A program made the position numbers and the translations under genes. The notes under the pieces were generated by a model. That model saw only the letters and a list, made by a program, of their open reading frames with translations, searched no databases and was not told where the DNA came from. Source: Spirochaetaceae bacterium (lineage in GTDB: Bacteria; Spirochaetota; Spirochaetia; SZUA-6; Bin103). From it: a DNA stretch of 15,386 nucleotides. Shown one piece after another: positions 11,060-15,386 of this stretch (position 1 is its first letter; each line of letters begins with the position of its first letter). The stretch is from the NCBI GenBank assembly GCA_028820215.1, contig JAPPKD010000221.1, forward strand, positions 1 to 15,386. The letters run 5' to 3'.

Positions 11060-12028
11060 CTACCAGATCCCGTACTCACCGAAGATCTTGGCGGCGCGAT
11101 TGACGATGATCACCAAAATCAGGCCGATCACGTTCTGGAACAGCCCCACGGCCGCGGCGAAGCTGTACTTCAACTCCGCCAGGCCGACGCGGTAGACGTA
11201 CGTATCGATGATGTCGGCTACCTCGTACACCGCCGGGTTGTAGAGCAGGAAGATCTGGTCGAAGCCCGCTTCCAGGATGTCGCCCACCCGCAGGATGAAC
11301 ACGATGATAATCACGGGGATGATCGACGGTATCGTGATGCTCCACGCCTGCCGGATCTTGCCGGCGCCGTCGACGATCGCCGACTCGTGAAGCTGCGGGT
11401 CCACGCCGGCGATGGCGGCCAGGAAGATGATCGATCCCCATCCGACCTGCTGCCAGACGCCGGTGGCGATCAGGACGGTCACGAACCAGTTGATGTCGGC
11501 CAGAAAGTGGATCCGATCACCGCCCAGGCCGGTGATGATCAGGTTGACCGCCCCGGTGGAGGGGGAGAGGATGGTCCGGATCACACCGCCCAGTACGACC
11601 CATGACAGGAAGTGCGGCAGGTAACTGATCGTTTGCACGGTGCGCTTGAAGTGGCGTTGGCGCACCTCGTTCAGGAGCAGCGCCAGGATGATCGGCGCCG
11701 GGAAGCCCCAGAACAGTCGATACAGGCTGATGAGGACGGTGTTGCGGAAGACCCGGCCGAAGTCGGTGGTGCCGTTGAACATCCGCACGAAGTGATGGAA
11801 CCCGACCCACTCGCTGCCCCAGATACCGTCGAAGAACCGGTACTTCTTGAACGCGATGATGATCCCGTACATGGGACCGTACCTGAAGATGATGGTCCAG
11901 ACGAGCGCGGCTGCCAGCAGGACGAACAGATAGCGGTGGCGGTAGTACTGCTGCAGGATCGACGGACGGTTGAGAGAGGCGAGGTCGACGTGAACGGCGG
12001 TGTTGGGAGCGGATCGACGCAGCGCCAT
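11060..12028 (-). CDS. Sugar ABC transporter permease, LplB-like, first gene of the second module
   Basis: This 322-aa integral membrane protein has the LplB signature GPMYGIIIAFKKYRFFDGIWG after a first membrane segment (YLFVLLAAALVWTIIF). The EAA-type loop reads PQLHESAIVDGAG, followed by WSITIPSI. The C-terminus is IFGEYGIW, typical of this group. The ATG at 12026-12028 has no obvious ribosome binding site in the preceding 15 nt (TTTCGGCTCTA), so initiation may be weak or leaderless-like. It is the first gene of the leftward cluster. The 500-nt region upstream, which carries the left lox-like site and any promoter, separates it from the recombinase gene. Confidence 0.9.
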   Translation of the reverse strand: MALRRSAPNTAVHVDLASLNRPSILQQYYRHRYLFVLLAAALVWTIIFRYGPMYGIIIAFKKYRFFDGIWGSEWVGFHHFVRMFNGTTDFGRVFRNTVLISLYRLFWGFPAPIILALLLNEVRQRHFKRTVQTISYLPHFLSWVVLGGVIRTILSPSTGAVNLIITGLGGDRIHFLADINWFVTVLIATGVWQQVGWGSIIFLAAIAGVDPQLHESAIVDGAGKIRQAWSITIPSIIPVIIIVFILRVGDILEAGFDQIFLLYNPAVYEVADIIDTYVYRVGLAELKYSFAAAVGLFQNVIGLILVIIVNRAAKIFGEYGIW

Positions 12029-12351: not shown

Positions 12352-12385
12352 TTAGGCACCGATAACTGCGATTGTCGGCACCTGA
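12352..12385 (+). repeat. Left lox-like recombination site (13-8-13 bp)
   Basis: Left arm TTAGGCACCGATA (12352-12364), spacer ACTGCGAT (12365-12372), right arm TGTCGGCACCTGA (12373-12385). The two arms are inverted repeats of each other at 9 of 13 positions. The site matches the reverse complement of 13729-13762 at 28 of 34 positions, including 7 of 8 spacer bases. The geometry is that of loxP, and the site lies about 170 nt beyond the 3' end of a Cre-like recombinase gene. That it is the recombinase's target is inference. Confidence 0.65.
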
Positions 12386-12434
12386 CGGACGACTTCGGCT
12401 CGTATCGTCGAGAGCGTTTTCGCCAGTCATCGGC

Positions 12435-12466
12435 ATTACCAAAGCATGCCGCGGCGTAGTTGTCAA
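12435..12466 (-). promoter_or_regulatory. Weak candidate promoter pointing out of the recombinase segment toward the sugar operon
   Basis: On the minus strand there is a consensus -35 hexamer TTGACA (12466-12461). The best downstream -10-like hexamer, GGTAAT (12440-12435), has only 4 of 6 consensus bases and a long 20-nt spacing. It lies between the recombinase stop and the left lox-like site, inside the predicted invertible segment, and reads leftward. Treat it as a lead only. Confidence 0.2.
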
Positions 12467-12554
12467 TCCCCCGTCAGCCGCCGCCCACGCTGCGAGGGCG
12501 AGTGCGTCGCCGGCATCTTGCTGCTTGCCGCGAGGTTGGGAGCCGCGGCTCGCG

Positions 12555-13592
12555 CTACGCCGCCACCCCGTGCCTGAGTCTGGCGACTGCGCCTCGCTCC
12601 GCAAGCTGATGCCGCGCGTAGTGCCCAGGCATGCTCGGTGACTTCCAATCGCCCGCACGCTGCAAGTCGACCAGACTCGCCCCGGCTGCTACCAGCGACT
12701 GGACCGCCCCCACACGCAACGAGTGCCCGGATATGCGACCCACGATCCCGGCAGCGGCCGCACGCTGCGTGATGATCCGCCGGATCGACCGCACGCCGAG
12801 CCCTGCGCGCACGGCGCCGCCCTTGTTCACCCCGCAGAACAGCGCGCCGGCCTCGATCCCGGCCGCCTGCAGGTAGCGCCGCACCGCATCCACCGTCGAC
12901 CGGCCCACGTAGCGCACGTGTCCTCGCCCGTGCTGATCCGTTTTGGAGCGCCGGACCGTGATCGTGCCGCTGCCGTCCGGCTTCACGAACAGGTCGCTGA
13001 CCACCAGCGACGCCAGCTCGGATACGCGCAGCAGAGCATCGCTGCCCAGACGGAGGAGCGCAGCGTCGCGCAGGCCGGCCAGTGAGCCGTCGCTTTCGGC
13101 GAGCGCGGCGGTTCGATCGACGTCCTCCCAATCCAGGCCCTCGACCTGACCCCGGCCCCGGTTGCAGTAGGTCGCGCCGATCGAGCGAAGCGCGCGCCGT
13201 ACCGCTCTGGAGGCGGTGGGATCGACCGCACCGACGGCGCGGTGCGCTGCGCCGATGGCGGCGCGATCCACATGCACGGTGGCCGGCGCCCTGCCGGACT
13301 CGGCGCGTGCCGTGAGGTAGACGGCCACCCACTTCGGAGCGGCCGGGAATGATCGCACGCCGTGCTCGGACGCCCACGTCCGCCACCGCTCCCAGCCGCG
13401 GACGTAAGCGCGGCGCGTGTTCTTCGCGCAGTAGGCATCGGTGAGCGCAGCCACGACGCGCGCCGTGGCCGCGTCCATACGGAGGACGTGAGCGGCGGCG
13501 CACAGTCGAATCGCGTGGTCGTACGCGGCCGACAGGGTGGCGATGGAGTTGGCGACCGAGACTACGGAGAGGGCGAGTAGATCGAGTGCCAT
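12555..13592 (-). CDS. Cre-like tyrosine recombinase
   Basis: This 345-aa site-specific DNA recombinase would cut and rejoin DNA through a tyrosine-DNA intermediate. The N-terminal helical region includes AYCAKNTRRAYVRGWERW, comparable to the core-binding domain of Cre. The catalytic domain has R189 (LLRVSEL), K217 (RRSKTDQ), H290 and R293 (SGHSLRVGA), W316 (AGDW) and nucleophile Y325 (GHYAR). P1 Cre is 343 aa with R173, K201, H289, R292, W315 and Y324, and its SGHSARVGA segment is strikingly alike. I chose the ATG at 13590-13592, 22 codons inside the open frame, because GAGGAG precedes it at 7 nt. It is flanked by inverted lox-like sites at 12352-12385 and 13729-13762. No phage structural, replication or partition genes are visible, so it does not look like part of an intact P1-type element. 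Confidence 0.9.
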   Translation of the reverse strand: MALDLLALSVVSVANSIATLSAAYDHAIRLCAAAHVLRMDAATARVVAALTDAYCAKNTRRAYVRGWERWRTWASEHGVRSFPAAPKWVAVYLTARAESGRAPATVHVDRAAIGAAHRAVGAVDPTASRAVRRALRSIGATYCNRGRGQVEGLDWEDVDRTAALAESDGSLAGLRDAALLRLGSDALLRVSELASLVVSDLFVKPDGSGTITVRRSKTDQHGRGHVRYVGRSTVDAVRRYLQAAGIEAGALFCGVNKGGAVRAGLGVRSIRRIITQRAAAAGIVGRISGHSLRVGAVQSLVAAGASLVDLQRAGDWKSPSMPGHYARHQLAERGAVARLRHGVAA

Positions 13593-13612
13593 GGCGAAAC
13601 TCCTCGACGATC

Positions 13613-13633
13613 GGAATGGTGCGCTCCCATTCC
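13613..13633. promoter_or_regulatory. Inverted repeat just upstream of the recombinase start, candidate operator
   Basis: GGAATGG (13613-13619) and CCATTCC (13627-13633) form a perfect 7-bp inverted repeat with a 7-nt spacer, ending about 20 nt upstream of the recombinase ATG. The position suits an operator or a leader hairpin near the ribosome binding site. A 9-bp direct repeat, CACGGTTCC, occurs further upstream at 13646-13654 and 13702-13710. No regulator is known, so the role is inferred from position alone. Confidence 0.35.
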
Positions 13634-13728
13634 AGGACCGCACCCCACGGTTCCACACGCACGCGTGTTGGGCACGTCGTGCATCGCGGCAGCGCCGCTG
13701 ACACGGTTCCGCTCTCTCCTGCCGGCGC

Positions 13729-13762
13729 TCAGCAGCCGACAGTCGCAGTTATCGGCACCTGA
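13729..13762 (-). repeat. Right lox-like recombination site (13-8-13 bp), inverted relative to the left site
   Basis: On the plus strand: left arm TCAGCAGCCGACA (13729-13741), spacer GTCGCAGT (13742-13749), right arm TATCGGCACCTGA (13750-13762). The arms are inverted repeats at 10 of 13 positions. On the minus strand the spacer is ACTGCGAC, against ACTGCGAT in the left site. The right arm plus the next three bases repeats 12373-12388 at 15 of 16 positions. It lies 137 nt upstream of the recombinase start codon. Confidence 0.65.
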
Positions 13763-13878: not shown

Positions 13879-14901
13879 GTGTCGGTGGTGGCCCTGCTGC
13901 TGTCGGCGCTGACGGCGTGGTCTGATCCAGCGGCCCGGATCGGCGGCGCAGAGGCGCTGAGCCTGACCGACCTGTACGCGGCGGCAGCGCCCGCGATCGA
14001 CGGACACGAAGCCGCGCTGCTGCGCTGTCAGCTTGACGCCGAGCGCAGCCGGGACGAAGCGTTGCAAACGATCCTGCGCGACTTGGTGCACGCGCGGCTG
14101 CGCACGATGGAGGCAGCGCGCCTGGGACTGTCGGCCGAGGCGCTCGCGGCCCACATCGACGAAGCGGTCGAGCCGGTGACCGACGCCGAGGTGAGCGCCT
14201 TCCATCGGGAGCGCGGCATCACCGAGCCTCTGGCTGAGATCGGGCCGCAGATACGCGCCTACTTGGAACGCCAAGCGGTCGAGGACGCCCGCGCAGCGGC
14301 GTATGCCGAGATGGAGCGCCGCTACGCGGTGGCGTACCTGCTGGAGCCGCTACGCGTCGAGGTAGCGGCCGAGGGGTTCCCGTCGCACGGGCCGGCGGAT
14401 GCGCCGGTGACGATCGTCGAGTTCTCGGACTTCGAGTGCCCCTACTGCGCGCGCCTGGCGCCGGTGCTGGACGAAGTGAAGGGCTACTACGACGACACGG
14501 TGCGGGTCGTGTACCGGCACTACCCGCTGAGCGGCATACACCCGGATGCCTGGAAAGCGGCCGAGGCGTCGCTGTGCGCCCATCAGCAGGGGCGGTTCTG
14601 GGAGTTCCACGATCTGTTGTTCGCGGACCAAGGCGCGTTGAGCGCTGCGGACCTGAAAGCGAAGGCGGAGCGGCTGGACCTGGACGCGGAGTCGTTCGGG
14701 GAATGTCTGGACTCCGGGCGCCGCTACGACGCGGTGCTGGCCGACGTACGCGCCGGCGACGCGGCCGGGGTGTCCGGGACGCCTGCCATGTTCGTCAACG
14801 GGCGGTTCGTGGGCGGCGCGGTGCCGTTCGCGACGCTGGCCGAGCTCATCGAAGACGAGTTGCGCCGCGCGGCACAGGCCGCGAAGGCGAAGAAATCATG
14901 A
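13879..14901 (+). CDS. Secreted DsbA-family (thioredoxin-fold) protein with a SurA-like N-terminal region
   Basis: This is a predicted periplasmic thiol-disulphide oxidoreductase of 340 aa from the GTG at 13879. A hydrophobic segment (VVALLLSALTAW) suggests a signal peptide. Residues ~60-155 are helical and SurA/PpiC-like (including VEPVTDAEVSAFHRERG). The thioredoxin-like domain starts near 170 with PVTIVEFSDFECPYCARLAP, active site CPYC at 187-190, and the cis-proline loop is GVSGTPAMFVNGR. The start is uncertain because GTG lacks a ribosome binding site and gives almost no charged N-region. A CTG at 13858, in frame and 8 nt after GGAGG (13845-13849), would restore an Arg. An ATG at 13853 begins MRCRRRAVR in the other frame, so a 1-nt indel would give an ideal signal peptide. 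The frame is open back through the right lox-like site. A small lipoprotein gene follows. Confidence 0.85.
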   Translation: MSVVALLLSALTAWSDPAARIGGAEALSLTDLYAAAAPAIDGHEAALLRCQLDAERSRDEALQTILRDLVHARLRTMEAARLGLSAEALAAHIDEAVEPVTDAEVSAFHRERGITEPLAEIGPQIRAYLERQAVEDARAAAYAEMERRYAVAYLLEPLRVEVAAEGFPSHGPADAPVTIVEFSDFECPYCARLAPVLDEVKGYYDDTVRVVYRHYPLSGIHPDAWKAAEASLCAHQQGRFWEFHDLLFADQGALSAADLKAKAERLDLDAESFGECLDSGRRYDAVLADVRAGDAAGVSGTPAMFVNGRFVGGAVPFATLAELIEDELRRAAQAAKAKKS

Positions 14902-14983
14902 CGGCGCCGGCGAGGCCGGCAGGCGGACGCGACGGCGCCTCTTCCCTTTGGGAAGGTCATTGCGCCCGCCGGCCGCTTCGCGG

Positions 14984-15211
14984 GTGACCCGATGGCACAC
15001 AGCGTGCTGCATCGGGCTGTGTTGCTGCCTGCTGGCCGGCTGCGGCACGCCGGGCGAGTTCCGCGTGAGCGTGAACTACGACATGAACCCGACGCCGCCG
15101 GCGGTGTCGGTCACGGTCGATCAGTTCACGTGGTTCTCGTTCGGCCATGCGTCGATGAGTGTCTCCACGACGGGTGCCGCGACGGCCTCGGTGACCGTCT
15201 ACCTGCCGTGA
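14984..15211 (+). CDS. Small predicted lipoprotein of unknown function
   Basis: This frame encodes 75 aa from the GTG at 14984-14986 (VTRWHTACC start). A short basic N-terminus and a Cys-rich hydrophobic stretch (CCIGLCCCLLAGC) end in a clear lipobox, LAGC, so the mature protein would be a lipid-anchored peptide of ~55 residues. The mature part is Thr/Ser/Val-rich with alternating polar and hydrophobic residues (SVNYDMNPTPPAVSVTVDQF), suggesting beta structure. No ribosome binding site is evident, and a TTG further upstream at 14948 is also in frame. It lies 82 nt after the DsbA-like gene on the same strand, with a CTTCCC/GGGAAG hairpin between. I do not recognise the family. The lipobox argues that it is real despite its size. 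Confidence 0.55.
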   Translation: MTRWHTACCIGLCCCLLAGCGTPGEFRVSVNYDMNPTPPAVSVTVDQFTWFSFGHASMSVSTTGAATASVTVYLP

Positions 15212-15289: not shown

Positions 15290-15386
15290 CCGCGGGGGGC
15301 CCCCCGGGGACCCCAACACCGGGCGCGCGCCGGGGGGGGGGGGGGGGGGGGGGAGGAGGATTGAACCCCCGGGGGGGGGGGGGACA
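15290..15386. other. Low-complexity contig end, probable sequencing or assembly artefact
   Basis: The final ~95 bases contain long G runs (over 20 consecutive G near 15332-15353 and over a dozen near 15370-15383) and GGGGGGCCCCCC stretches with no codon structure. Poly-G tails are typical of two-colour Illumina chemistry when signal is lost. No feature is called here. Confidence 0.8.

Follow-up and report, generated by a model that had tools for sequence, protein, structure and literature searches.

A candidate self-inverting DNA segment carrying a Cre-type recombinase gene between paired lox-like sites in a Spirochaetaceae bacterium

A Cre-type recombinase gene in the window (the entire 15,386-nucleotide stretch of Spirochaetaceae DNA analysed here) lies between two inverted lox-like sites, and we consider it somewhat probable that this segment is a self-inverting promoter-inversion (phase-variation) switch. 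In the mechanism we propose, the two sites delimit an inversion module of 1.34 kb: the recombinase is predicted to bind both inverted sites, strands would be exchanged across their identical central 6 bp, as relatives suggest, and the segment with the recombinase gene and its leader would flip. The flip would alter the DNA directly upstream of a divergent gene encoding a DsbA-like protein, which would thereby be joined to, or cut from, regulatory DNA in the segment, giving an on/off switch. In relatives, the gene layouts suggest that the same enzyme family acts either on a recombinase-containing segment or on a short promoter segment beside the recombinase gene, and that the controlled gene often encodes a secreted or surface protein.

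The lox-like site on the 3' side of the recombinase gene (12352..12385, plus strand) has a 13-8-13 geometry and reads inward as TTAGGCACCGATA-ACTGCGAT-TGTCGGCACCTGA; its inverted counterpart on the 5' side (13729..13762, minus strand) reads inward as TCAGGTGCCGATA-ACTGCGAC-TGTCGGCTGCTGA. The original prediction of two 34-bp sites flanking the gene, matching each other in inverted orientation at 28 of 34 bases with spacers that differ at one position, was reproduced on the sequence; the mismatch is at the last spacer base, and the central six (CTGCGA) are identical. A repeat search joined the pair into a single inverted repeat of 45 nt with 78% complementarity and 1343 nt between its arms, in agreement with the predicted distance of ~1343 bp. 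The stop codon is followed by a gap of 169 nt (12386..12554) up to one site, and a leader of 136 nt (13593..13728) separates the ATG at 13592 from the other, compared with 170 and 137 nt as first given; both would lie inside the putative invertible segment, and neither they nor the segment as a whole yielded a sigma70-like promoter match. The best inverted 34-mer match between the 450-bp flanks scored 28, against a mean of 21.0 (s.d. 0.97) and a maximum of 27 in 1000 first-order shuffles of the flanks, so that no shuffle equals the observed match, although the highest falls just one base short of it. With as many as 5 mismatches allowed against the 20-bp core, no third copy was found in the window. 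Inverted sites with identical crossover bases round a segment, and a recombinase encoded in or beside it, are the arrangement expected of an inversion switch, and both are present here.

The site arms are imperfect, as had been remarked, with the 13-bp arms of the two sites palindromic at only 9/13 and 10/13 positions. Their 4 and 3 mismatches exceed the up to 2 arm mismatches allowed in a search rule for 34-bp 13-8-13 lox sites (PMC4957104, in the part available), and by that rule we do not file the unit as a lox system; it may work in a Cre/lox-like manner. Cre/loxP, Dre/rox, Vika/vox, Nigri/nox and Panto/pox resemble the window in using a tyrosine recombinase, the window enzyme being closest to Cre, and a 34-bp 13-8-13 site beside the gene is the architecture by which, according to the same partial source, nox and pox were found (PMC4957104). 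The window differs from these relatives in having two inverted sites instead of one and less symmetric arms.

The recombinase gene (12555..13592, minus strand) encodes 345 residues from the ATG at 13592. An alternative GTG at 13658 would extend the open reading frame to 12555-13658 (367 residues); the ATG is preferred because the closest homologues (P0002-P0011) have 342-346 residues. The protein belongs to PF00589 (E 2.6e-15), and its best match in the PDB is Cre (E 4e-23 over residues 80-362). A Foldseek search with an AlphaFold model (mean pLDDT 78.5, pTM 0.59) placed Cre first (E 3.1e-14), with ranks 1-33 all occupied by Cre or the Cre-derived Tre. The model superposes on Cre with a TM score of about 0.5 and an r.m.s.d. 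of about 14, the overall arrangement not being reliable, and the Cre assignment therefore relies on sequence. In 43 sequences, the window's included, R189, R293 and Y325 are invariant and K217, H290 and W316 nearly so. We matched these positions, through our own alignment with Cre, to the set R, K, H-x-x-R, W and Y described for Cre-type tyrosine recombinases (PMC7096588, seen in excerpt). Judged in this way, the window enzyme is a Cre-type tyrosine recombinase that has kept its catalytic residues.

Homologues of the recombinase are numerous (1852 proteins at E 0.001 among 7998 candidates scored); of the best 120 of these, which were listed, two carry the name Spirochaetaceae (71 and 62% identity). 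In a tree of 93 rows the window falls in a well supported clade with 24 listed homologues that include both of these, and the window site pair is the only one analysed within its Spirochaetaceae clade. A contig scan confirmed 154 related genome stretches, of which the best 80, with 37-54% identity in the best segment, were analysed. None of these 80 is titled as a spirochaete; many are metagenome-assembled genomes of Poribacteria, Nitrospinota, Dadabacteria and Gammaproteobacteria, whose bin names we take to denote sponge metagenomes. Two poribacterial relatives carry an N-terminal GIY-YIG nuclease fusion (PF01541; L061 6384-7643 and L067 1271-2491), L050 being similar by alignment, and five loci (L030, L041, L048, L186 and L188) have a tandem pair of recombinase genes behind one promoter segment.

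The original prediction proposed looking for the same sites round homologous recombinases, and part of the family bears this out. The recombinase lies between inverted sites in 19 of the 80 loci (16 gammaproteobacterial loci sharing one motif, plus L012, L021 and L029), and 12 further loci have two inverted sites, spaced by 168-213 bp, on the upstream side of the recombinase (L002, L004, L006, L007, L009, L030, L031, L035, L041, L048, L064 and L076), hereafter called promoter-pair loci; the remaining 49 have no recognised site pair. The count of 19 rests on motif and position: a blind pair score misses the gamma loci L042, L059 and L066, which the motif scan finds, and in ten more loci (L001, L015, L017, L019, L022, L023, L025, L031, L036 and L051) repeats not accepted by us as bracketing sites score above the maximum of the locus's own 12 shuffles. 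L054 and L056 are nearly identical (99% over 9.2 kb) and independent cases are therefore fewer than the count; L046 is close kin of L002. At both sites of L048 and one site of L030 the core is CCGATAATTGCGATTA, close to the window's CCGATAACTGCGATTG. When the recombinase-inside label is placed on the tree, 3 changes are needed, at least 2 of them forced by well supported branches. The tree covers 12 of the 16 gamma loci, which form one clade (L056, L058, L059 and L066 were left out), and L012 sits on a long branch with unsure placement.

The main evidence that pairs like the window's may recombine is a footprint of the kind that strand exchange would leave. Across 11 homologous loci with sites 168-179 bp apart (ten of the 12 promoter-pair loci plus L175), the central 6 bp match within the locus in 11/11 cases and occur in 7 versions between loci. 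None of 100,000 permutations was as good, in a test that ignores relatedness, some loci being close kin with a common spacer; the outer- and inner-facing arms show no covariation (p 0.95 and 1.0). The score used to choose the site pairs counts the identity between the two sites, and we trust the pairs because the spacing holds throughout and the segments are homologous (L009 in part). L002 and L004, whose segments lack homology to the other 11 and which were left out for that reason, each have identical 8-bp spacers at their two sites; the central bases of the L021 pair are identical at 5/6 positions. Tyrosine recombinases exchange strands across the spacer bases and usually need these to match, and we know of nothing else that would make the spacers change together as the arms drift. 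Spacer covariation without arm covariation would thus be the mark expected of strand exchange. A lack of cross-recombination has likewise been ascribed to incompatible spacers (PMC4957104, available in part).

The gammaproteobacterial elements carry a similar signal. In 12 gamma-family genomes the site pattern gave 45 matches (in 9 genomes) compared with 1 for the reversed control. Of these, 34 form 17 in-contig pairs, about 1.15-1.22 kb apart and convergent in 17/17 cases. The 11 unpaired matches comprise two in G017 and one in G011:C115 that have a mismatch-bearing partner, four near contig ends that carry element homology (L148, L150, L159 and L169), and L166, L173, G180:C587 and G012:C183. 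Identical central bases occur in 18 of 19 distinct gamma elements (p 0.0003, carried by three loci with rarer spacers), four of the 19 coming from genome searches outside the 80 loci.

These patterns bear on the possibility, which we regard as quite unlikely, that the pair is inert or locked, the sites being operators or relics bound for autoregulation with no natural inversion. Operators would have no evident reason to match variable spacers while their arms differ; the convergence of every gamma pair and the retention of the catalytic residues likewise speak against it. The limited palindromy of the window arms (9/13 and 10/13) would suit such a pair, as would the fact that every intact copy scored is in one orientation. 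None of the promoter segments at 11 distinct loci is flipped, all having one orientation, and in the gamma elements no secreted gene lies opposite the recombinase start (13 to 0), so that the scored relatives (11 and 13) do not show both of the orientations expected of an inversion switch. An assembly retains the majority form, but a balanced 50:50 switch should still have shown flips, and flipping is therefore rare, strongly biased or selected one way. Inversion by a Cre-type enzyme, as originally predicted, thus gains from the enzyme, the inverted sites and the footprint in relatives, and finds no counterpart in an intact flipped copy among the relatives scored.

Two loci, each a single case, look like recombination products. 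In the degenerate locus L173 an apparent recombinase leader is joined to a right tail across one site, the kind of junction that a flip would make. The tail matched a profile built from six loci of our choosing (E 7e-6), and neither an 18-locus tail profile nor a leader profile matched; in pairwise comparison the leader reached 34, the null maximum being 24, whereas the tail at 24 only equalled its null maximum of 24. In L166 (1501-1514, G180:C416) a solo site is flanked by the secreted-gene leader and, opposite it, by sequence resembling a right tail, and no recombinase match was found in the locus. The basis for this reading is pairwise comparison (scores of 81 and 48, with null maxima of 29 and 25), the leader and tail profiles having given no match.

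L166, with its secreted-gene leader, one site and right tail and no recombinase match, could also be counted in favour of an IS-like mobile unit, in which the recombinase and its lox-like ends, with or without the secreted gene, would move as a block and the sites would be its ends. We hold this to be unlikely as an account of the window. It draws support from L042 and L044, where a 1.2-kb unit 95% identical occurs in different contexts of one genome and homology stops near the sites, and from two genomes that lack the insert at one locus (G022:C117 and G130:C16), the missing piece being larger than site-to-site. Yet Cre-type enzymes acting on inverted sites produce inversion, not excision; the spacers covary between a locus's two sites; and conservation, judged by eye, extends some 40-70 bp beyond the right site, and between some loci it reaches the secreted-gene leader. 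The moving block is therefore larger than the site-to-site unit, and the conserved tail past the right site weakens a purely IS-like reading. Mobility and switching can both be true.

It had also been suggested that the window sites mark an old attL/attR-like pair left by phage or plasmid integration. A Cre-like enzyme adjoining site-like sequences would fit such an origin, and the sites do align as direct repeats (77% over 30 nt), but their inverted match is better (28/34), the recombinase is the sole gene-like ORF inside the segment among the ORFs listed, and relatives repeat the inverted layout; this is not the layout of an integration pair, in which direct sites would surround mobile-element genes. 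A search of 50,697 phage records gave no match, none was confirmed in viral contigs, and 164 plasmid records all fell below 60% identity (best listed, 39.7%). No tRNA target sites were found in the window or in 16 relatives. We consider an integration origin very improbable, and return to the preferred reading of an inversion switch.

If the segments are switches, the relatives point to what may be switched. In the 11 homologous loci with sites 168-179 bp apart, a TTGACA-type promoter inside the segment is aimed at the recombinase in 10 cases (L009 has no strict match) and away from it in none; in L002 the promoter toward the recombinase overlaps the inner site, so that 10 of the 12 promoter-pair loci have such a promoter. 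From the layout, a flipped promoter segment would aim at a surface gene. The divergent surface gene begins some 200-550 bp past the outer site, not at it, and a long divergent ORF lies upstream in 9 of 12 promoter-pair loci, the contig being too short in the other 3. Those scanned encode collagen-PKD proteins (L030 and L048) and a giant Ig-like protein (L004); a Pfam scan of the upstream proteins of L041 (lipoprotein-like) and L065 found no family. Surface-type neighbours also occur at loci without a recognised pair, namely L005 (TonB-receptor-like) and L072 (an LRR-Ig-like giant).

At L021 and its paralogue L029, divergent porin genes (PF13609) stand on either side of the segment. The porin leaders align from the site outward and the insides of the two ends differ; a flip would swap which porin follows the inside DNA. 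The Campylobacter fetus sap element similarly has an invertible promoter segment between divergent surface protein genes, and differs in being much longer, with many alternative genes. The two porin pairs (L021 6841-10482 and L029 1-3707) are paralogous within one Rhodobacteraceae genome, and a search of 295 genomes of that family at E 1e-40 found a match in this genome and in none of the others.

Of 17 scoreable gamma elements, 13 have a gene with a signal-peptide-like start just outside the site nearer the recombinase start; on the opposite side, none of 19 does. The heuristic is our own and its cut-off of 1.6 was set after the scores had been seen (lowest kept 1.65; next L059 at 1.52 and L039 at 1.44); as a scan over the loci it had no control and serves as a list only. 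Nine near-site ORFs on the upstream side (L012, L026, L034, L042, L058, L073, L075, L078 and L116) matched no Pfam family at E 0.001. Orphan-like proteins with signal peptides were seen at L026, L034, L042, L044, L049, L054, L073, L074, L075, L078, L096, L116 and L210; by eye they differ between loci, some leaders or signal peptides being alike (L068/L074 and L044/L073), and they are possibly fast-evolving secreted proteins.

The candidate switch target in the window is the DsbA-like thioredoxin-fold protein encoded divergently from the recombinase (13879..14901, plus strand; PF13462, E 4.7e-27; PF01323, E 5.6e-22). Our heuristic scan for a signal peptide gave it a score of 0, and we infer its export from its family. 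Beyond the other side of the segment lies a gene (11060..12028, minus strand) that, by its look, is presumably a sugar-type ABC transporter permease. A small lipoprotein-like ORF with the motif LAGCG and no Pfam match (14948-15211) follows the DsbA-like gene, and the end of the window (15296-15386) contains long G runs and looks low-quality or misassembled.

Counting the window, there are 8 cases in which a homologue of the DsbA-like protein and one of the recombinase lie on contigs of equal size (28352, 15029, 17519, 2665, 33526, 6606, 37421 and 3395946 bases), the chance figure for those below 50 kb being about 0.2. On the 2665-base contig the two must be neighbours; in the other cases, their equal size suggests that they apparently share a contig. 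The recombinase had been described as standing alone as a unit. The family does not support this description: DsbA-like homologues appear on the contigs of recombinase homologues, and in several relatives the corresponding place is taken by a gene for a secreted or surface protein.

Nor is a recombinase inside its own invertible segment without described precedent, as had been supposed. In Hin/hix of Salmonella flagella the recombinase lies, as in the window, inside its own invertible segment, of 966 bp, and controls a surface protein, to which we liken the candidate switch here (PMC5903667 and PMC9368917, in the portions available). Hin, however, belongs to the serine recombinases and works with an enhancer, and enzyme and sites are unrelated to those of the window, whose enzyme is a PF00589 tyrosine recombinase (PMC3798978, in extract, for Hin). 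An 844-bp fimbrial segment of Providencia stuartii holds a recombinase ORF inside imperfect inverted repeats in a window-like manner, although its repeats are of 14 bp and at a fimbrial locus, and we liken it by layout, not recombinase class (PMC5903667, same portions). PsrA/CreX of Streptococcus pneumoniae has a tyrosine recombinase gene among hsdS copies whose segments invert, and differs in inverting hsdS coding parts at a 15-bp repeat (PMC4948785, partial text).

Taken across phyla, these loci may represent a family of Cre-type enzymes in probably marine-sponge symbionts, each enzyme forming part of a small module that flips itself and switches a single gene for a secreted or surface protein (porin pairs, collagen-like, giant adhesin-like, signal-peptide orphans and DsbA-like), with the enzyme repeatedly moving inside and outside the flipping segment; we put this wider reading at close to an even chance, leaning slightly against. 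In a literature search that covered few subscription papers and preprints, and sources available in part, a family of Cre-type enzymes that combines paired lox-like sites, two alternative layouts and neighbouring genes for secreted or surface proteins, in several phyla, appears to be new. Spacer covariation between two inverted sites without arm covariation offers a cheap test for other recombinases. If the reading is true, nature would hold a family of Cre-type enzymes with new self-paired target sites in several spacer versions sorted by evolution, and uncultured bacteria belonging to several phyla would repeatedly make use of phase variation of exported proteins.
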